A stretch of 64,000 nucleotides of DNA, from NCBI GenBank assembly GCA_017643395.1, contig JAEPNP010000005.1:248001-312000 (forward strand), given 5' to 3'. Positions 29,156-62,168 of this stretch are shown here, in pieces. Numbering within the stretch: position 1 is the first letter of the stretch; the number at the start of each line of letters is the position of its first letter. The position numbers and the translations under genes are program-made. The notes under the pieces are model-generated. The model made no database searches. It had not been told where the DNA came from and saw only the letters and a list, made by a program, of their open reading frames with translations. The stretch is from Rhodothermales bacterium (GTDB lineage Bacteria; Bacteroidota; Rhodothermia; Rhodothermales; UBA10348).

Positions 29156-29195
29156 ACGGCGCGGCCCTTTGCGGAGGCCGCGCCGTTTCTGTTTG
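29156..29195 (+). terminator. Rho-independent terminator after the barrel gene
   Basis: A perfect 11-bp stem ACGGCGCGGCC (29156-29166) / GGCCGCGCCGT (29176-29186) has a 9-nt loop and is followed by TTCTGTTTGT. It lies 28 nt after the barrel gene stop. Confidence 0.85.
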
Positions 29196-29227
29196 TGGGG
29201 GGTGTGGCGCTGCGGTGGGGGCGTGGG

Positions 29228-29405
29228 GCCGCTGGGCCGGGGCGCTGGGGGCCGCGCTCGGCCGCTGGGCCGGGGCGCTGGGGGCCGCGCTCGGCCGCTG
29301 GGCCGGGGCGCTGGGGGCCGCGCTGGGGCCGTTGGGCCGGGGCGCTGGGCGGCGCGGCGGGCCGCGCTGGGGCCGTTGGCCCGGGGCGTTGGGCGGCGCC
29401 GCGGG
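29228..29405. repeat. 33-nt GC-rich minisatellite
   Basis: About three near-identical 33-nt units (core GGCCGCTGGGCCGGGGCGCT) are followed by degenerate copies. All six frames through it are Gly/Ala/Arg/Pro low-complexity, so the long open frames here are compositional artefacts. It is part of the 1.1-kb non-coding block 29129-30239. Confidence 0.8.
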
Positions 29406-29423
29406 CCGGCCCGCGCGGGCGAA

Positions 29424-29551
29424 GTGGAATCGGGCGGCCCGATTACACCCGGGCGCGCGCTGCGCGGGGGCGCTTGTGGACTGAGCGCCAGTATTCCACT
29501 TCGAGGGTTGGCTGGAGCGGGCAGAGGTCGAATTCGCCCCCTGAATTCCAT
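29424..29551. repeat. Hairpin array D: three GTGGAATC-type hairpins, 51-52 nt pitch
   Basis: Three hairpins start at 29424 (GTGGAATC, 9-nt loop, GATTACAC), 29476 (GTGGACT, 10-nt loop, ATTCCAC) and 29527 (GTCGAATT, 9-nt loop, AATTCCAT). The stem, the loop length and the spacing recur while the sequence between them changes. The same hairpin type recurs at 43364-43490 and 59851-60110. Confidence 0.65.
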
Positions 29552-29700
29552 GTTGGGGGCAGATTGCGCATCGCCCGGAACGCCGCACCTTCGGTTTCCG
29601 AGACGCTGGGGCGGGGGCCGCGGGCTGGGTTGGGGCGGCCTCGCGGCCGGGGCCGCTGAGGCGCGTCGGGGCCGGGGCCGCTGAGGCGCTGGGCCGCGCT

Positions 29701-29800
29701 GGGGCCGCCGGGCCAGGCTGGGGCGCCGGGCCGCGCTGGGGCCGCCGGGCCAGGCTGGGGCGCCGGGCCGCGCTGGGGCCGCCGGGCCGCGCTGGGGCCG
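29701..29800. repeat. 37-nt GC-rich minisatellite
   Basis: Two exact 37-nt units (29701-29737, 29738-29774), each made of two related half-units (GGGGCCGCCGGGCCAGGCT and GGGGCGCCGGGCCGCGCT), are followed by a partial copy. Further diverged half-units precede them from about 29650. The array is non-coding. The flanking stretch 29801-29922 shows nothing recognisable. Confidence 0.75.
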
Positions 29801-29922
29801 GGACGGCCGGGGGCACTTCCGCTTCTTCCGCCGTCGGATCGGACATGCGGGCGCGAGCCGGTTGGCGGGTCGGCGCCCGAGGTGCGGTATGGCACATGTC
29901 ACCGGCGTGACATCTGCCGCCC

Positions 29923-30150
29923 AAAGTTGAAAATGGGCCCCGGAGACAACCTATTGGCGCCGTCAGGAGCCGTTAAAGTTGAATACGACCCCGGAGGCGA
30001 CCTAATGGCGCCGTGAGGGGCCACGAAGGTTGAATACGGCCTCAGAGGCAACCTATTGGCGCCGTCAGGGGCCGCTAAAGTTGAATGCGGGGCCCGGAAT
30101 CAACCTATTGGCGCAGTGAAGGGCCGCTAAGGCCCGGAATCAACCCGTGG
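29923..30150. repeat. Tandem array A: 51-52 nt units with AGTTG...CAACCT hairpin
   Basis: Four full units begin at 29923, 29975, 30026 and 30077 (steps 52, 51, 51), and a truncated fifth ends near 30150. Each reads A(A/G)(A/G)GTTGAA...CAACCTA(T)TGGCGCCGT. In the third unit AGGTTG/CAACCT forms a perfect 6-bp stem. The whole unit is conserved, so there are no variable spacers as in CRISPR. Confidence 0.8.
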
Positions 30151-40378: not shown

Positions 40379-41473
40379 CTAGCGGAGCGCCGGGAAGATC
40401 TCCTCCTCCAGCATGTCGAACGTGACCCTGGAATCCTGCTCGAAATTGCCAGCCGTCGTGACGATAACCACGTCCTTGTGGGGCACCACGAAGACAAATT
40501 GTCCGCCGTATCCCCAAGCGAAGTACACATCGTTCTGGTTCAGCGACGAGACCACCGAGTCCCCGTTGCGGAATCGCCACCACTGGAAACCGTAGGCGAG
40601 CCCGTTGTTGGTGGTTGTGTGCTGCGAGGTGGACAGATCCACCCAGGATCGCGGCACCACCTCTTCCCCGTTGTGCCAACCGCGGTTCTCGAACAGCTGG
40701 CCGAACGCCATGAGTTGCCTGGCGGTGAGGTGGAGCCCCCAGCCCGTGTTGGTCATGCCCGGCATGCTCTCATCCCATCGGGGTGAACCGAGTGAGACCG
40801 CCTCGAAGATTGTGGCATCTGCGTACGCTTCGGTGGTCGCTCCGGTGGCGTGTTGCAGCACGCCCGAGAGCAGCATCGATACCCCGCTTGAGTAGGTAAA
40901 TCGCGTACCCGGATCGCTTGTGATCGGGAGGTCCAGCATGTACTGGACCACATCGCCCGAGCGGGAAATCGCGGTCGCGCTGTTGGCGGCGCCTCCGTAT
41001 GGCACCGTCCATTCATCCCACTCGAACCCTGCGCGCATCGTCAGCAGGTTCTCCAGGGTGATGCCCGCGGCTTCGGACGGCACGGAGTAGTTGGGAAAAT
41101 ACTCGGGCAGTGTGCTCTCGAGGGAGCCGATGTGCCCCGCGTGGATGGCGATGCCAATGAGGGCGGACGCGAAGGACTTGGTGACCGAGTAGATCGGCCG
41201 CGCCTCCTCCGCCGTGATGCCGCGGAAGTACTCTTCCACAATGAGGTTGCCGTCTCGGCTGATCAGCAGACTGCGGATCTCCCCGAAATCGCCGGAATCC
41301 GCGCGGGCCACGACACGGGCGATGCGCACTCCGTCCAGGCCGGCCGCCTCGGCTCCGGGGTAGGTTGGAGCTTCGGGCTCCGGATCCGGCAGCGGGTCGA
41401 CGACGCCTGAATCGGAGCAGGCCGGAAGCAGGACCAGGAGGCAAAGGAGCCAGAGGAATGGCCGGAGGCGCAT
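40379..41473 (-). CDS. Secreted lipoprotein-like serine hydrolase (beta-lactamase family)
   Basis: 364 residues from the ATG of MRLRPFLWLLCLLVLLPACSDS, a lipoprotein-like signal with Cys at LPAC. A short Pro/Glu-rich spacer precedes the catalytic domain. The SxxK motif is YSVTKSFASALIGIA, the second motif FTYSSGVSMLLSG is YxS/N-like, and the end shows VFVVPHKDVVIVTTAG. It belongs to the class C beta-lactamase/esterase superfamily and is periplasmic or surface-anchored; the substrate is unknown. It is the second such hydrolase in the window but not closely similar to the one at 36787. Confidence 0.85.
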   Translation of the reverse strand: MRLRPFLWLLCLLVLLPACSDSGVVDPLPDPEPEAPTYPGAEAAGLDGVRIARVVARADSGDFGEIRSLLISRDGNLIVEEYFRGITAEEARPIYSVTKSFASALIGIAIHAGHIGSLESTLPEYFPNYSVPSEAAGITLENLLTMRAGFEWDEWTVPYGGAANSATAISRSGDVVQYMLDLPITSDPGTRFTYSSGVSMLLSGVLQHATGATTEAYADATIFEAVSLGSPRWDESMPGMTNTGWGLHLTARQLMAFGQLFENRGWHNGEEVVPRSWVDLSTSQHTTTNNGLAYGFQWWRFRNGDSVVSSLNQNDVYFAWGYGGQFVFVVPHKDVVIVTTAGNFEQDSRVTFDMLEEEIFPALR

Positions 41474-41631
41474 GGTTTCGGCGGGGGTCCGAGTGCGGGC
41501 GTTCGGAGCCAGCGGGATTGCGGGGAGACTGAGCGTGCGGTTAGGCGCGTGCCTAAATCTGGCGCTGACGCCGCTGGCCGTCAAGGCGTTTACTTTGCTC
41601 CCCTTTCACGTGTGCCCGAAAAGCAAAGTGT

Positions 41632-43014: not shown

Positions 43015-43363
43015 TCGCTCGCGGTCGCCGGCGCACGTTTGCCGGTGGCCTACGCTCGGACCCAAAAAGGTGAGCCAAATGCAGCCGTAGCGGTGAGCGT
43101 TACGGCAAGACGCAGGGCACCCTCCCCAGCCATCGCCGAACAACAAAGGTAGACGCCAAGAAGTGGTCACCGAGTTGAATTCGGGCAACGTAGTTCTTCC
43201 TGGCGGATCCTGGACGTTGGGCCGCGGCACCCTCTTGGTCGCAGTCAAAGCGTCAGTTCCAGTTGAAAATGTCCGGGTTTTGGCGGAGGTGACGAGCCTC
43301 AGGAGGCCGTGCATTTTGCACCCCGCCCCGGCACACTGTGAACTGCCCTACGCCGCCCCGGTT
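43015..43363. other. Intergenic stretch without recognisable gene
   Basis: No frame here shows family motifs or good coding character. It begins directly after the short truncated signal-peptide frame and grades back into high G+C. It may contain remnants of the gene whose start was duplicated with the lipoprotein units. Confidence 0.5.
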
Positions 43364-43535
43364 GTGGAAAAAGGGCCGGGATTCGACATCGAGGCTCAGC
43401 GGGTTGTGGCGGTAGTGGAATAGGCCGCGCGATTCCACGTTGGCTGTGTCAGGAGAGGGGAGAATGTGGGATCCGCCCCTGCGATTCCATGTCGCGGGCG
43501 AATCGACTCGTGGCGGGGCGAAAGGCGTGATTCCG
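43364..43535. repeat. Hairpin array E: GTGGAAT-type hairpins, 51-nt pitch
   Basis: Hairpins begin at 43364 (GTGGAAA with ATTCGAC, imperfect), 43415 (GTGGAAT, 10-nt loop, ATTCCAC, perfect 7-bp stem) and 43466 (GTGGGATC with GATTCCAT, allowing G-U). A further ATTCC half-site lies at 43530. It is the same hairpin family as at 29424-29551 and 59851-60110. Confidence 0.65.
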
Positions 43536-43567: not shown

Positions 43568-44023
43568 ATGCGCCCCATCGTCCTCCTTGTGCTGCTAACA
43601 GCCGCCTGCCGGCCCGCCGACATCCAGCCTGCGTCTGAACAGGAGGTTCGCGACTTCCTGGTCGAATTTGCTGCGGACGCGGCCACATCGGATGCGGACC
43701 TCATCGCACGGAATTACACGGAGGACGTGCGCATTCTGGAGGACGGCCGGGTCGCCGACACCTCGCGACAGGCAGTGCACGATGCCATTGCCTCCTTCCC
43801 GGTTCAAGGCTCCGTCACGCTTGAGTTTGAGGACACGCGGGTGCTCCCCGCCGGGCCGGACGCTGCGCACGTGCAGACTCTCTTCTCTCAGCGGTTTGAA
43901 GGCTCGGACCTCGCCTTTTCCGGAGCAATCAGCATGCACCTGGTCAAACAAGGGGGCACGTGGCTCATCGCGCGCAGCCATACCTCCACCTCGCGGCCGC
44001 GCCAGGATTTCCCGGCGCAATAG
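43568..44023 (+). CDS. NTF2-like (SnoaL/DUF4440-type) lipoprotein
   Basis: 151 residues from the ATG of a short lipoprotein signal (MRPIVLLVLLTAACRP, lipobox TAAC). The mature part fits the NTF2 cone fold: an N-terminal helix pair (EVRDFLVEFAADAATSDADLIARNYTEDVRIL), SRQAVHDAIASF, and strands ending GGTWLIARSHTSTSR. NTF2-like lipoproteins can be enzymes or ligand binders; nothing identifies the ligand. Monocistronic, with GC-rich sequence downstream. Confidence 0.75.
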   Translation: MRPIVLLVLLTAACRPADIQPASEQEVRDFLVEFAADAATSDADLIARNYTEDVRILEDGRVADTSRQAVHDAIASFPVQGSVTLEFEDTRVLPAGPDAAHVQTLFSQRFEGSDLAFSGAISMHLVKQGGTWLIARSHTSTSRPRQDFPAQ

Positions 44024-56500: not shown

Positions 56501-56777
56501 TCGCTTCCTGGTTGGACGTCAGAAAAACGTCTTCCAGGCCGTCCCCGTTGAAGTCTCCGATGCCGACGCCGCCTCCGTCATAGTAGTTGCGGTAGGCAAA
56601 CACGTTTTGCTCCGCAGTGTCGGTCAGGCGGTTTTCGAACGCGACATTGGTGTAATCGGCCGGGAGTTCGGTGAATCGGGCGGTGACTTCAGGCTCCACG
56701 CGATCCTCCCGCGAGGGCGCCTCTTTGCACCCCGCGAGCATCAGAATCACCAGCAGCGCGCAGGCCCTAACTGTCAC
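53556..56777 (-). CDS. CRTAC1/ASPIC-UnbV FG-GAP repeat lipoprotein (paralogue 2)
   Basis: 1073 residues, GTG start, lipoprotein signal ending LMLAGC. It is collinear with the next gene downstream: FNGDGLEDVFLTSNQ, DVNADGLPDIYV, DYDRDGWPDLYI and the conserved YVTDMLPPDDARI; an ASPIC-like region (GIGAQITLHHAGGLQYLEQMPNRGFQSSVSP, LEVLWPDGR); then DVNGDGREDLFVGG and DADSDGGLDLYVASGGNEF. The pair probably arose by duplication. Both should sit on the cell surface or periplasmic face as lipid-anchored propellers binding glycans or proteins. The start overlaps the plug gene stop by 11 nt. Confidence 0.88.
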   Translation of the reverse strand: MTVRACALLVILMLAGCKEAPSREDRVEPEVTARFTELPADYTNVAFENRLTDTAEQNVFAYRNYYDGGGVGIGDFNGDGLEDVFLTSNQEANRLYVNRGDFWFEDITEAAGVGGTHAWSTGVSVVDVNADGLPDIYVCNSGDVRGDDRANELFINLGPDQDRVPRFEEAAAQWGLADTGYSTHAVFFDMDRDGDLDVFVMNNSSRPITSFPERQIRATRHPDGGDRLYRNDGGTYTDISRDANIWGSEIAFGLGTTVGDYDRDGWPDLYISNDFFERDYLYRNQRDGTFEDVLEAAMAHISQSSMGADMGDINNDALPDIYVTDMLPPDDARIKQVSTFDSWTGYQNGLEEDFYHQVMRNTLQLNDGDGTFREVGQAWGVAATDWSWSALLVDLDMDGLKDIHVTNGIYRDLTDQDFLEYFGSDDIVQQWRENQELDVLDILDRIPSRPLANVAFRNVGGRFEDVSTDWALTAPGWSNGAAYSDLDNDGDPDLVVNNVNQQAGFFRNETNPAEWLRPTLEGDGDNSAGIGAQITLHHAGGLQYLEQMPNRGFQSSVSPRPLFALPAPADSLEVLWPDGRRQVLSGPLTGDVVLRQADAAAKREAGPRARSEAAETWYRRLPDPGISHTENEYDDFQRQPLLLKTVSRDGPRLAVGDVNGDGREDLFVGGAKESPGRLLIGTASGGFRLEQEFSEDAVAEDMGAAFFDADSDGGLDLYVASGGNEFSRQAPALRDRLYLGPGMMASELPLLFESSALPLPADVDRDGDQDVFVPGGMVPWAFGQKPPHHLLRGDGRGNFTAETVAADLGMVSEGTWADLTGDGSQELVVVGPWEPVRVLDADFQPIAMPGLDSLHGWWHRVHAADVDGDGDIDLLLGNVGTNAGLHTPLEMQVGDFDSNGWTEQLVSAAGRPYPLRGELLAQLPSLADRLTSHEAYATMTFADFVDLPSERVLRIDHLRSFLAENTPDGFVLHPMPEEAQWAPVTAFAVLDLNRDGRLEIVAAGNHGGFIPRIGPLDAGRGVVFNFEGGEIRQVPRHVHGLDLRGEVRDMAVLKDGRLVVAHNNGPVTLWGRR

Positions 56778-57186
56778 GCTTCGAGGCGCCGGTCTTGGTG
56801 GTCACGACAATGACGCCGTTGGCTCCGCGCATGCCCCATTGCACCGTGTCGGTCGGGTCCTTCAGCACCTGGATCGACTCGATCTCCGTCACAACGATGC
56901 CCGGCAGCGTGCCGTCGTTATTCGGCGTTACGGGCACGCCGTCCACCACGTAGAGCGGCAGGTCGTCGCCGCGGAACGAGGTATTGCCACGCAGGCGAAC
57001 CTGCAGGCGGCCGTCGGCGGTTTGTGAAACCCGAATGCCCGGGACTCGGGATACCAGCAGGTCCTGTACACGCACGGCCTGACTGCGGCCGGTGTCCTCG
57101 GCCGTCACCTCGCCTGGCGCACGGACTTCGTTCGAGCCACCGCAGCCAAGCAGCAGGAACGCAAGGATGAGGGGGATTCGGTTCAT
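56767..57186 (-). CDS. Stand-alone TonB-receptor plug-domain lipoprotein
   Basis: 139 residues. The lipoprotein signal is MNRIPLILAFLLLGCGG (lipobox LLGC), then a short linker and a complete SusC-type plug: VQDLLVSRVPGIRVSQTADG, LQVRLRGNTSFRGDDLPLYVVDGVPV, EIESIQVLKDPTDTVQWGMRGANGVIVVTTKTG. The protein ends without a barrel. It is coupled to the glycosidase upstream (ATGA overlap) and to the CRTAC1 gene downstream (11-nt overlap). It is related to the plug protein at 49523, so the CRTAC1 pair and the lipoprotein gene are framed by plug genes. Confidence 0.83.
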   Translation of the reverse strand: MNRIPLILAFLLLGCGGSNEVRAPGEVTAEDTGRSQAVRVQDLLVSRVPGIRVSQTADGRLQVRLRGNTSFRGDDLPLYVVDGVPVTPNNDGTLPGIVVTEIESIQVLKDPTDTVQWGMRGANGVIVVTTKTGASKRDS

Positions 57187-59804
57187 TGGGTATCGAGCGG
57201 GAATCGCAAAACGCGGCGCACATAACGACCAGGTTCGCCGTCGAACTCCAGGGCCACCAGCGCATCCCGGCCAGGGACCTGGCGCACATCCGTACCCGGC
57301 GCCGGTTGCACGCGATGGGGTGTACGGATTCCCAGCAGGTAGCGTTTCCCGGGCAGACCTTCGACTGTAAGGCTGATCGCGTCCGCGTCCGCTTGGCTGC
57401 GCAGGATGCGGAGGCCGGTGCTTCGAGCGCCTGGTCCGGCCGGCTCGTGAGTCACGTACGCATCACTGCCCGGGGACCGGGTGATCGAAATGACCGCACC
57501 ATTGTCGGAAAAGGGCACTTCGACCCGCACGAATCGCCGGTCTCCGCGATCTGCTATGGTGAAGGGCACCTCTTCTCCGTTCACCTGAATGCTGCCGACC
57601 TGCGCGTCCTGCGGCATGGCGGGCTCCACGATCAGGCGCGATGGCCCGCCGCCGCCCTCTCGGCTGACGGCGATGCGCACCGTATTGTCGAGTCGACCGT
57701 ACTGGATGGCGACGAACCCATCGCCCGCCGGAATCCGGTCAACCCGCACGCTACCCCAGTCTGCGGGCAACTGCGGCGAGAAGACCAGCGTCGAGCCGGC
57801 GTCCCGCATGTCGAGACCCAGCATGCCACGAATTAGCGGCGTGACGACCATCGCCTCCGACCAGATCTGATGGTGCGACGAACGCCCGAACGCTGTATTG
57901 AAATCCCCTGAAAGGAGCTCCGTCACGTAGCCCAGTGCGTCCTGCCGGGTGAGCAACGCGGTCGCCATGAGCGCCTGATGACCGATGTGGGGGCGCGCGT
58001 AGGTATAGCCGCCCATCGAGACCCAGCCCGTGAACAGCGGCCAGACCGAGCCCGTGTGGTAGGACAGCGGGTCGTACCACGGAGATTCTTCCTCGGAGAA
58101 GAGGCGAGCCCCCCAGTCGGTAGACACCGCACCGCCGCCCAGTGCGTCCAGTTCGAGATGGGCGCGATCCTCCTGGGCGGTGCCCCACCAGAGCGGCACG
58201 CCGGTGAGCGAGGTCGAGGCGGTGAAGTAGCTCTCCGCCTCATCGGGCAAATCCGGGATGGGAGTGGCCCATTTGTAGCGACCGGCGTCCTCCATCCAGT
58301 AGGCAGCCTCCATGGCGGCGCTGGTTCGTTCGGCCCGGGCCGATGCCTCACGGGCGAGGTCCGTGTGCCCCATGGCTTCGGCCATCTGCGCCATGGCCCG
58401 GTTGGCTTCGATCCAGATGCCCTGCATATAGATCTCCTCCTCCGGCTCGAAGGCCTTGGCCTCCACCCACCCGTGGCCCACCTGGTAGTTGTTCAGCAGG
58501 CCATCGTCATCCAGATCGGTGGCCGCGGCCCAGTTGTAGGCGCCGAGCACCGACTCCCAGGAGCGCGACAGGTACTCGCGGTCACCCGTCAATCGGTAGT
58601 AGTCGCCGTGGGCTACGACGTACAGCGGCGAGGCGTCTGCCGAGTGGTACGCGTATCCGAATCGGTTGAACCAGTCGATGAGCGTAGCACTCTGGGAGAC
58701 CTCATGCGGGATGCGGCCGTCCTCGGTCTGCACGCCGGCCAGAAAGTCCAGTGCGGACCGGGACGCTTCGTAGTCGCCGTAGGCCATGAGCGCGTACGAT
58801 GTCCACATTGCGTCCCGGCCGAAATACCAGGCAAAGCCGGGTCGTTCGCTACTGCCGGCCGTGCGATATCCCGCCACGAAGCCGGTGCCCAGATACGGAT
58901 TGGTGACGAGCCCCTTTTCGGTGCCGATCTTGGCCCAGGCAAACGCCTCGTCCAGGCGGTCATCCGGCGTGTCCACTGTAACCGTGCGGTCCAGCAGATC
59001 GCGGTAGTAGGCCGCCGTGCCCTGGTACAAATCGGCAGCACGGGCGATGAGGTCTGAGGCGGTCTCCCTGGCTCCGTCGATGCCCTCGATGCTTCCGGCG
59101 ATTGCGATGGGATAGAGATGCGTGGCGGCCACCTGGGGGTCGACATCGAGAATGAACCGGTTCGGCACGTCACGGGGCTCCTCCTGGTAAGGCATGACCG
59201 AAATGTCCCGCGCGCCGGGTGCCATGATGGCACCGCCAAACTGCTGGCTGTCCTCGACGATGCCGTAGAGGTGGCTGTCTGCGTCCCAGAAAATGCCGCC
59301 CGTCTGGAGTCCGGCCGGCCACATCAGACGCAGGTCCGGACGGAAGCTGCCGATCACCTCTATCGGCCGTACGGCGTCGACATCGAGCAGCATGACCACG
59401 CCCATCTCATCCACCGGGGCGAAGATGGTCTGCTTTACGGTGAAAGCGGCATGGCGGTAGGTCAAGACGGCCGATTCGGGCCGTACTTCAACGTGCGCCA
59501 GGATCTCGTTGCCTGAGATGTCCAGCGGATAGTCCTGAATCTTGAACTCGAGCTGGAAGTCCCGCACGATCTTCATCGGGTAGACCCAGACCTCGAATGG
59601 ACGATGCTCGTAGCCGAACGCAGCGGAGCGGCGGCCGACCACGTTCATGTAGGTGCCGGCGCTTGAGGGTCGCTCCAGCAGCAAGCCACTGTCGGCGCGT
59701 TCGAACCGGGAAATGAGCCCGTCTGTGGCGGGCGCGGGTGCCATGTCTTGACCGGCCGCAGCGACGGCCGGGAGCAGCAGGGCTATAAGAAGGAATGCAC
59801 GCAT
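57183..59804 (-). CDS. Secreted (alpha/alpha)6-toroid glycoside hydrolase
   Basis: About 873 residues from the ATG of a Sec signal peptide (MRAFLLIALLLPAVAAAGQ); the longer open frame upstream runs through the repeat array and is not coding. A beta-rich N-terminal domain is followed by an (alpha/alpha)6 catalytic toroid with GFAWYFGRDAMWTSYALMAYGDY, DGRIPHEV, EEEIYMQGIWIEANRAMAQM and SYHTGSVWPLFTGWV, then beta-rich C-terminal domains. The pattern resembles GH63/MGH1-like or amylo-1,6-glucosidase-like enzymes; the exact family and bond specificity are undecided. It is probably periplasmic, cutting oligosaccharides imported by the SusCD pair upstream. Its stop overlaps the plug gene start. Confidence 0.8.
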   Translation of the reverse strand: MRAFLLIALLLPAVAAAGQDMAPAPATDGLISRFERADSGLLLERPSSAGTYMNVVGRRSAAFGYEHRPFEVWVYPMKIVRDFQLEFKIQDYPLDISGNEILAHVEVRPESAVLTYRHAAFTVKQTIFAPVDEMGVVMLLDVDAVRPIEVIGSFRPDLRLMWPAGLQTGGIFWDADSHLYGIVEDSQQFGGAIMAPGARDISVMPYQEEPRDVPNRFILDVDPQVAATHLYPIAIAGSIEGIDGARETASDLIARAADLYQGTAAYYRDLLDRTVTVDTPDDRLDEAFAWAKIGTEKGLVTNPYLGTGFVAGYRTAGSSERPGFAWYFGRDAMWTSYALMAYGDYEASRSALDFLAGVQTEDGRIPHEVSQSATLIDWFNRFGYAYHSADASPLYVVAHGDYYRLTGDREYLSRSWESVLGAYNWAAATDLDDDGLLNNYQVGHGWVEAKAFEPEEEIYMQGIWIEANRAMAQMAEAMGHTDLAREASARAERTSAAMEAAYWMEDAGRYKWATPIPDLPDEAESYFTASTSLTGVPLWWGTAQEDRAHLELDALGGGAVSTDWGARLFSEEESPWYDPLSYHTGSVWPLFTGWVSMGGYTYARPHIGHQALMATALLTRQDALGYVTELLSGDFNTAFGRSSHHQIWSEAMVVTPLIRGMLGLDMRDAGSTLVFSPQLPADWGSVRVDRIPAGDGFVAIQYGRLDNTVRIAVSREGGGGPSRLIVEPAMPQDAQVGSIQVNGEEVPFTIADRGDRRFVRVEVPFSDNGAVISITRSPGSDAYVTHEPAGPGARSTGLRILRSQADADAISLTVEGLPGKRYLLGIRTPHRVQPAPGTDVRQVPGRDALVALEFDGEPGRYVRRVLRFPLDTQ

Positions 59805-59850
59805 GATCAGGGGGGCGGGGCGCTCAGCTCGGCGGCCGCGGGGGTGCGAG

Positions 59851-60110
59851 GTGTAATCGGGGGGGCACTCGGCGGGCGGCGCTGCGGGGTGCAAGGTGTA
59901 ATCGGGGGGTGAGATTCCACTCGGCGGCCGGCGCCGCGGGGTGCGAGGTGTAATCGGGGGGTGAGATTCCACTCGGCGGCCGGTGGCGGGGGGTGCTAGG
60001 TGTAACGCGGGGGTGAGATTCCACTCGACGGCCGGCGCCGCGGGGTGCTAGGTGTAATCGGGGGGTGAGATTCCACTCGGCGGCCAGCGGCCGCGGGGTG
60101 GGTGGTTTTG
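59851..60110. repeat. Hairpin array B: five GTGTAATC...GATTCCAC units, 52-nt pitch
   Basis: Units start at 59851, 59896, 59948, 60000 and 60052 (steps 45, 52, 52, 52). Most read GTGTAATC, G-rich loop, GATTCCACTCGG, then GGCCGGCGCCGCGGGGTGC. GTGTAATC can pair with GATTCCAC with one mismatch across a 9-nt loop. The array lies between the glycosidase start and SusD and is probably transcribed with the operon. Confidence 0.8.
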
Positions 60111-60122
60111 CCCCACCCCGCA

Positions 60123-60262
60123 AAAGGTTTAATCAGGGCGTGGTTTTGAACCTCTGCCGCCCCATCGAGGGAGTAAAGGTTCAATCAGGGCGTGGTTTTA
60201 AACCTCTGCCGCCCCGCAAAGGGGACAAAGGTTCAATCAGGGCGTGGTTTTGAACCTCCGCC
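60123..60262. repeat. Hairpin array C: three AGGTTCAA...TTGAACCT units, 52-nt pitch
   Basis: Units start at 60123, 60175 and 60227 (52 nt each). The AGGTTCAA/TTGAACCT 8-bp stem is perfect in the third unit and has single changes in the others, with a loop of about 13 nt (TCAGGGCGTGGTT) and GCCGCCCC after it. The design matches array A at 29923, whose stem is AGGTTG/CAACCT. The remaining 60263-60421 is GC-rich without recognisable features. Confidence 0.8.
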
Positions 60263-60421
60263 AGCCCCGGGAGCCCTGGCGCGAGCAGCGCGCCCAGCCC
60301 TGGCCGCAGCCCGGCAAACGTTGCACTCGGTCGCGGTGACTGGCCGATCGCCGGCTCGCAGGCCCGCCGGCGCGCAGGCCCGCCATCGGCAACCGCCCCA
60401 AGGCATGCACGCCAAACCAGA

Positions 60422-60453
60422 AGGCCCCGACCGGCGTCTGCCGGCCGGGGCCT
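60422..60453 (-). terminator. Probable hairpin terminator downstream of SusD
   Basis: AGGCCCCGACCGGC pairs with GCCGGCCGGGGCCT (one mismatch, 4-nt loop) 24 nt after the SusD stop. The minus-strand continuation TTCTGGTTTGG is only a weak U-tract, so it may be a partial terminator or a processing/stabilising hairpin between SusCD and the glycosidase unit. Confidence 0.55.
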
Positions 60454-60476
60454 CTGAATGGCGAATCAGATCCGGC

Positions 60477-62060
60477 CTAGTAGCCAGGGTTCTGGGTCAG
60501 GTTCGGGTTCGCATCTCGCTGAACCTGCGGGATCGGACCAAGAACCATGAAGCCGGGGGAAGCGGCTTTGAACTCCCAGGCCTCGTTGAACTTGCCTGCA
60601 CGAATCAGGTCCTGACGGCGCGAGGCCTCCCACATGAGCTCAAACAGACGCTCGTTCAGGATGACGTCGCGGGCTTCGGCCTGGCTGGAGGCGGTCACCG
60701 GCTCCGCGGGGTCGAAGACGCGGGCGCGCAGCGTGTTGAGCTGCGACATGGCTGCGGCCGTCTGGCCCAGCTCGTTCAGGGCCTCTGCCTTGATGAGGTA
60801 CATCTCGGCCAGGCGCAGGAACGCGTAGTCGTTGCCATTGTCGCCGCCGACACGATTCGGGTCGATTTCCCACTTCATGACGCGGGCACCGGAGGTTTCG
60901 TTGACACCAATCGGAGTGCCCGTCACCGGGTTGCCGTTCGGGTCGAGGTACTCCAGCGTGAACGCAAGCGGGTTGCCGACACGGTCTTCCAGCGGAGCGC
61001 CGGTCGCGAAGCACTCGCTTCCGATGCAGGCCTGGTTGGGATCACCGTACATCTGGCCCAACAGGAAGATCTTCCGACGCATGTCGTCTTCGTCGAACTT
61101 GTTGTAGGTCTCAGCCAGGGTGGCGAAGCCGTTCCAGGGAGACTGCGGGATCTGGTTGTAGTGCAGACCTCGCATGATGAACGTGAGGCCAAGGCCTCCC
61201 TTGCCGAGGTGGCCCACAGAGAAAATGATCTCCGGGCTCTCGTGGTTGTTCGTGCGGAAGTTGTCGAAGAAGTCTCCGGCCAGCTGGTACTGGCCTGAGT
61301 TGAGCACGCGATCAGCCGCCGAGATGGCGTCCTGCCAGCGGGCCTGTCCCTTGGTGAGACCACCCGCATCCACCGTTCCGGTGAACACTTCTGCGTTCAG
61401 GTAGATCTTGGCCAGCAGCGCGTCCGCTGCTCCCTGGGTGGCGCGGCCCTTGTTGGCTCCGTCCCATGCGGCGGGAAGGTCGGTCCGGGCGGCATTCAGC
61501 TCGCTCTCCACGAACGCGAACACCTCTGAGCGCGTGGAGCGCGACGGCGGGTTGTCCGGGTCCGTGGCTGCGTCTTCCACGATCGGAACGCCTCCGAAGA
61601 GGTCCATCAGCTGGTAGTAGTAGAAGGCGCGCAGGAAGCGCAGCTCAGCTGCGATGGCCGGGTCAGCGCCGTCCGGCAGGTTGGCAAGCACCACGTTGGC
61701 ACGGGCCACACCGGTGTAGGCATCCGTCCACGCACCGTTGAAGTCGCTGTTGAGGGCGTCCCAGTTGTGCTGATGCAGGTTGCGCCAGTGGCCGCCGTCG
61801 TCCCAGTCCGTTCCGCGAACCGGAATCATGGACTCGTCTGAGGTGACCTGGCTGATGTTGTGGTAGTTCCACATCATCGCGCGGAGCTGGGCATACACCG
61901 GGGCAAGCGCAGCAATGATTTCCTCGTCGGTCTGGAAGAACTGATCCGGTGTAATCACACCGAAAGTCTCCTCGTCGAGGTCCGTGCAGCCCTGGACGGG
62001 TACCAGCAAGAGCGCCAGCACGAGTCCCAGAGCCCAGGAGCTGTTGAGTTTCGCTTTCAT
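60477..62060 (-). CDS. SusD/RagB-family glycan-binding lipoprotein
   Basis: 527 residues from the ATG of MKAKLNSSWALGLVLALLLVPVQGCTDLDEE (lipobox VQGC). SusD features: TPDQFFQTDEEIIAALAPVYAQLR, helical TPR-like segments including AELRFLRAFYYYQLMDLFGGVP, and the C-terminal RLAEMYLIKAEALNELGQ, then VILNERLFELMWEASRRQDLIRAGKF. It caps the SusC barrel on the cell surface and delivers oligosaccharides or peptides. It lies 108 nt downstream of SusC on the same strand; the ligand cannot be read. Confidence 0.95.
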   Translation of the reverse strand: MKAKLNSSWALGLVLALLLVPVQGCTDLDEETFGVITPDQFFQTDEEIIAALAPVYAQLRAMMWNYHNISQVTSDESMIPVRGTDWDDGGHWRNLHQHNWDALNSDFNGAWTDAYTGVARANVVLANLPDGADPAIAAELRFLRAFYYYQLMDLFGGVPIVEDAATDPDNPPSRSTRSEVFAFVESELNAARTDLPAAWDGANKGRATQGAADALLAKIYLNAEVFTGTVDAGGLTKGQARWQDAISAADRVLNSGQYQLAGDFFDNFRTNNHESPEIIFSVGHLGKGGLGLTFIMRGLHYNQIPQSPWNGFATLAETYNKFDEDDMRRKIFLLGQMYGDPNQACIGSECFATGAPLEDRVGNPLAFTLEYLDPNGNPVTGTPIGVNETSGARVMKWEIDPNRVGGDNGNDYAFLRLAEMYLIKAEALNELGQTAAAMSQLNTLRARVFDPAEPVTASSQAEARDVILNERLFELMWEASRRQDLIRAGKFNEAWEFKAASPGFMVLGPIPQVQRDANPNLTQNPGY

Positions 62061-62168
62061 GATCTCAATGTGTGTTTCGTGGTTCTGCACCGACGTCCCG
62101 GGGGACGCGGTTGACACGATGCAGTCCCGTGTGTTTCAGCGACTTGTCGCAAGCACGGGACCGTGCGA

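Follow-up and report, generated by a model that had tools for sequence, protein, structure and literature searches.

Two adjacent arrays of inverted repeats, B (59849-60078) and C (60125-60257), lie between a SusD-family gene and a glycosidase gene in the window considered here, i.e., the whole 64,000-nucleotide stretch of DNA that was analyzed, and they raise the question of whether such repeats act as RNA hairpins, as protein-binding sites in double-stranded DNA, or simply as repetitive DNA. Both arrays have 52-nt spacing in the window sequence, which confirms the shared pitch claimed in an initial sequence-only reading, and the autocorrelation of region 59805-60476 was highest at lag 52 (0.548; mean over lags 0.30, sd 0.018), followed by lag 104. 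Array B had been described as having five units, four of which proved to be complete: its intact part (GTGG/GTGT type, 59894-60078) contains four 29-bp inverted repeats, AGGTGTAATC..GATTCCACTC, starting at 59894, 59946, 59998 and 60050 with 23 bp between neighbors, whereas comparison of the units revealed that the degenerate leftmost one (59849-59893) retains the left half-site AGGTGTAAT but has its right half-site broken by a 7-bp deletion in the right arm. Array C (AGGTT type, 60125-60257) carries three 29-bp inverted repeats, AGGTTYAATC..TTTTRAACCT, starting at 60125, 60177 and 60229 and separated by 23-bp linkers. Since the start of the glycosidase gene (MGH1-like/six-hairpin glycosidase domains; 57183-59804, minus strand) was set at ATG 59804, chosen by its signal-peptide-like N terminus, arrays B and C are upstream of this gene, and they sit downstream of the stop codon of the SusD-family gene (60477-62117, minus strand). 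A small stand-alone TonB-receptor plug-domain protein is encoded at 56767-57186, directly downstream of the glycosidase.

The exact-type B and C unit patterns matched at this locus only in a pattern search of the whole genome. At the same time, the recurrence of both hairpin types tens of kilobases away, as noted earlier, was borne out: a GTGG-type triplet (29422-29553), with three dissimilar units starting at 29422, 29473 and 29525, shares one long convergent intergenic region with array A (AGGTT type, 29924-30106), whose four units start at 29924, 29976, 30027 and 30078 with a pitch of 52/51/51. An additional GTGG-type triplet in the window (43362-43492), absent from the sequence-only reading, is flanked by a beta-lactamase-fold gene (40379-41584, minus strand) and a SnoaL-like gene (43568-44023, plus strand). 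The GTGG and AGGTT types were found together in one intergenic region at three places, two of them inside the window, and likewise at locus L160 of a related genome (G002). A long GC-rich tandem-repeat run (29194-29810; periods 18, 19, 33, 37, 44 and 56) surrounds the GTGG-type triplet at 29422-29553, in a convergent intergenic region of ~1.1 kb.

A scan with a half-site matrix of 2.45 Mb of the genome carrying the window (G000), of which 1.85 Mb was contiguous and unbiased and the remainder was picked around model hits, yielded 101 arrays, with three units in 82 cases, four in eight, two in five, seven in four, and five and nine in one case each. The unbiased part contributed 57 arrays in 1.852 Mb (~1 per 32 kb), from which ~140 arrays per 4.5-Mb genome were estimated by extrapolation; the covariance model R1 independently recovered triplets on all large contigs. 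A unit consists of an inverted repeat of 28/29 bp plus a linker whose length is exactly 23 bp in 205 of the 229 inter-unit gaps; the pitch is 51 or 52 according to whether the repeat measures 28 or 29. Unit lengths of three-unit arrays were (29,28,29) in 50 cases and (29,29,29) in 29, and the canonical element is 29-23-28/29-23-29, i.e., 132-133 bp. The genome-wide autocorrelation that had been proposed as a refuting test did not refute the pattern, giving a 51/52-nt peak, with periods of 51 and 52 present in the first 852 kb and upheld at 1.65 Mb, while the reversed sequence had no linker peak and 531 kb of other loci, used as a control, contained no 51/52-nt arrays. Additionally, AGGTT..AACCT pairs occurred almost only at total lengths of 28 and 29 (45 of about 60 pairs within 60 nt), and control word pairs displayed no 28/29 length peak.

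MIRU/VNTR loci also consist of ~50-bp intergenic tandem units at many loci, and the near-identical units of arrays A and B and of the AGGTT-type arrays with seven to nine units are what would be expected of ordinary, functionless VNTRs, i.e., slipped-strand tandem repeats. For the family as a whole this explanation is hardly credible, as most arrays comprise exactly three units that differ from one another yet share the 23-bp linker, their conserved part is the inverted-repeat half-sites, and the same pitch is seen again at loci that are unrelated and in a second genus. Within-array unit identity was 81% in the 12 AGGTT-type arrays, and had a mean of 59% and a median of 56% in the 89 arrays of the GTGG type; the spacing is the same even in triplets whose loops and linkers are unrelated, so the pitch is maintained without sequence identity. 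Simple tandem duplication is therefore insufficient, because 82 of the 101 arrays are made up of exactly three units, and the loops and linkers of these are usually unrelated. Whole triplets sometimes repeat at distances of 184-340 bp. In the divergent region that precedes a LexA-type repressor gene (G000 C1:251206-251830), a triplet is present in three tandem copies.

The conserved element proper is a 9-12-bp half-site, ANGTGGAATNCG with the variant AGGTTSAAT, two of which face each other across the unconserved center of each palindrome. When stems were compared with the rest, as had also been proposed, the arms were the more conserved part: differences between homologous units amounted to 6.2% in half-sites, 13.7% in loops and 16.1% in linkers, and these 117 non-independent unit pairs suggest functional constraint on the half-sites. 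Flanks outside the half-sites were not conserved, and no linker column exceeded 61% for one base.

Extragenic palindromic repeats are usually taken for RNA hairpins or transposon debris. In the former case, the arrays would be tandem 3′-end hairpins that stabilize or terminate mRNAs, doing so on both strands for convergent genes, and this agrees with where they lie, namely downstream of genes and in the gaps of convergent pairs, as it does with the folding of some units: the C units alone fold above shuffles (z −2.3 and −2.9), several single GTGG units likewise outdo shuffles in RNA folding, as does the whole B-C region with z −3.0. Single-unit folding was mixed overall, however, a typical B unit being no better than its own shuffles (z −0.27). 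Arm covariation was not detected by within-array shuffling, with own arms matching at 6.11 and neighbors’ arms at 6.17 of 9 positions (p = 0.81; 29 triplets, 87 units; weak power at core positions 4-8, which hardly vary), and mismatches are tolerated in the stem, the freely varying positions (2, 10-12) matching in only 25-36%. Alignment-level pairing was 75.2% against 72.4% after shuffling, above every shuffle, in a mixed set of 27 sequences of both types, and between GTGG and AGGTT units the two half-sites change together. Loop-linker complementarity was at chance (4.10 vs 4.22 shuffled), no terminator-like T-tracts were found at the arrays, and the Rfam 15 covariance models matched only a tRNA in the window, with nothing credible at the arrays. 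The stackable RNA hairpins of the initial interpretation thus found no support, and an RNA mode of action is quite improbable. Type III toxin-antitoxin RNA repeats and pseudoknots were rejected as well, the single-unit impression having disappeared on shuffling (the same 4.10 vs 4.22) and the neighbors being unrelated genes. Because the arms show no covariation and loop-linker pairing is at chance, RNA stems are disfavored and double-stranded half-sites favored, which argues for palindromes made of half-sites for putative protein dimers.

The other part of the initial interpretation, helical phasing, fits the data, with dyads 51-52 bp apart, although the invariant quantity is the 23-bp linker and not the 52-nt pitch. 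With a probability of roughly 0.6, arrays B and C thus belong to a family of extragenic double-stranded DNA elements that extends across the genome, namely putative phased protein-dimer sites; this reading is preferred because half-sites and spacing are fixed, the spacer is free and pairing is unconstrained. Each palindrome would bind one dimer of a putative sequence-specific protein, and since dyad distances of 51-52 bp correspond to about 4.9-5 turns, the three dimers of a triplet, about five helical turns apart, would all face nearly the same side of the helix and could form a cooperative nucleoprotein complex, with selection acting on half-sites and spacing only. That the three-site geometry stays fixed as every spacer varies in sequence is indicative of a protein-DNA architecture and offers a testable target in the form of a protein that binds a 132-bp triplet. 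Besides the RNA folding of some single units and of the whole B-C region, further observations count against the dimer-site reading: no candidate for the putative binding protein was found, the neighboring genes being functionally unrelated, and AGGTT-type arrays expand to seven to nine near-identical units in the manner of ordinary tandem repeats.

The genomic context of the arrays bears on what such sites might do. Intergenic location was found for 97 of the 101 arrays, whose neighbors are functionally unrelated housekeeping and metabolic genes. Among convergent intergenic regions of at least 200 nt, 29 of 48 hold an array (odds ratio 6.5, p 1.7e-8), and divergent regions are depleted (odds ratio 0.38, p 0.003), in a sample partly chosen around hits that displayed the same bias already in the first 1.65 Mb. 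As regards a placement bias around origin or terminus, the GC skew turns near 1.03 Mb of contig C1, arrays being frequent to one side of this point and scarce to the other, with the replichores incomplete. Intergenic regions with arrays are in many cases unusually long and rich in GC, their 100-nt flanks having 77% GC. One option would be a host role in chromosome organization, supercoiling or the ends of transcripts between convergent genes. In its most far-reaching form, namely a new class of multi-dimer chromosomal site in which an estimated 140 dispersed tripartite platforms per genome, each occupied by three phased dimers of a putative lineage-specific protein between convergent genes, organize or insulate the chromosome, this can be put forward only as a tentative proposal. 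If the binder were a host protein, the arrays would represent a previously undescribed chromosome-organizing system; if it were a transposase, they would be a new miniature-element type with multi-site ends.

The second option is that the arrays are the recognition region of a REP/MITE-like repeat spreading in tolerated downstream sites, and the distribution among relatives is informative here. Arrays were found in four of 27 genomes of the family, namely in the genus itself (G000, G001 and G002) and in one species of another genus (G010), with a model that was trained on G000 and would miss other half-site types; the same model gave no matches in the searched genomes from other families of the order. 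Phages, viral contigs and plasmids that were searched gave no match either. The loci of G001, G002 and G010 have the same 28/29 + 23 geometry, mostly in threes. Out of five G002 loci inspected, three (L151, L157 and L164) have a neighboring gene whose G000 homologue also adjoins an array; L157 has homologous genes on both sides, with an array in the same place but of the other half-site type, and L160 carries two triplets where the same two genes of G000 have almost no space between them. None of the inspected G010 loci shares its place with a G000 array. Because positions turn over between species, we lean slightly toward a repeat-like origin over a host role. Short palindromes with ~21-nt spacing in Acidobacteria (L059:9859-10175 and L080:12636-12822) belong to an unrelated regular palindromic repeat.

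G001 contains seven dispersed copies of a fusion between a triplet and the remnant of an IS1182 left end, the IS1182 assignment being presumed from an N-terminal protein signature and not from a database match. These copies carry the left end only, with CTAG before it, and in most of them the right boundary is sharp at the end of the last palindrome; CTAG is present at both sides. At L218:691-1100 of the same genome, a second IS1182-like left end, CAGTCTGTCGGACT with a transposase-start-like reading after it, starts right at the CTAG of the palindrome foot. It follows that triplets are able to hitchhike and that the foot of a palindrome can serve as an IS insertion point, as in REPs, which are also targets of IS elements (PMC1525189). 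As a general driver, or as the source of an IS1182-derived MITE, IS1182 was rejected, PF05598 being absent from G000, G002 and G010; CTAG was rejected as a general insertion target, its frequency being 1.05 per kb in G000 array regions and 1.58 in other intergenic regions. TAG stops are somewhat more frequent beside arrays. A purely selfish MITE/REP-like mobile repeat, with palindromes serving as transposase binding sites and no host function, would account for the patchy distribution, the positional turnover, the tandem copies of whole triplets and the seven fusions, but we consider it unlikely: the G000 copies share only half-sites and not internal sequence, unlike recent transposon copies, the half-sites stay conserved in diverging units, and no Y1/RAYT, serine resolvase or IS1182 is present in G000.

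No description of such triplets was found in the literature search. The closest analogues of the putative dimer-site arrays are REP/BIME and sopC-type arrays, and each departs from them in a tested defining feature. REP/BIME elements of the GTAG and CGTC super-families (PMC3733652) are likewise 20-40-bp palindromes with many extragenic copies, a downstream/convergent preference and a patchy occurrence among related species, and the 28/29-bp units, in arrays of which 97 of 101 are intergenic, fall within this size class. The arrays differ from REPs in being direct head-to-tail (head-to-tail REP dimers are described as rare; PMC3733652), in having exactly three units with a fixed 23-bp linker, and in lacking arm covariation and conserved loops and linkers; the GTAG/CGTC end tetranucleotide of REPs was not found in the arrays, nor was any conserved flank outside the half-site. 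The Y1 (RAYT) transposase, PF01797, is absent from G000, G002 and G010, and CGTC REPs have been described without a dedicated transposase (PMC3733652). The F-plasmid centromere sopC/parS-F consists of twelve 43-bp tandem units containing inverted repeats with 16-bp motifs bound by protein dimers (PMC6238139); it resembles the arrays in constant pitch and in tandem units containing inverted repeats, but it is one plasmid locus against ~140 chromosomal ones, with near-identical instead of dissimilar units and a pitch of 43 instead of 51/52 bp. An additional ParB/Noc paralogue was rejected as an explanation, exactly one ParB_N protein being present in each of 15 genomes, with and without arrays. 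The arrays are best classed among REP-like extragenic repeats, as a new one whose fixed geometry is unusual.

The res sites of Tn3-type serine resolvases are built from three palindromes, each a dimer site of about 25-34 bp, that together occupy ~120-130 bp. In overall layout the arrays likewise have three palindromes, but evenly spaced and in many copies; PF00239 was found in none of G000, G001, G002 and G010, and res sites were rejected. Palindromes of 28 bp have the size of tyrosine recombinase sites, and an extra tyrosine recombinase was rejected, the counts of 4-15 in genomes with arrays overlapping those of 3-18 in genomes without. In G000, an array lies about 260-270 bp upstream of the start of each of two Xer-like tyrosine recombinase genes: C5:44856-44986 near the gene whose domain is at C5:43688-44215, and C8:54592-54722 near the one whose domain is at C8:55378-55890 and whose start is estimated. 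This is a weak coincidence.
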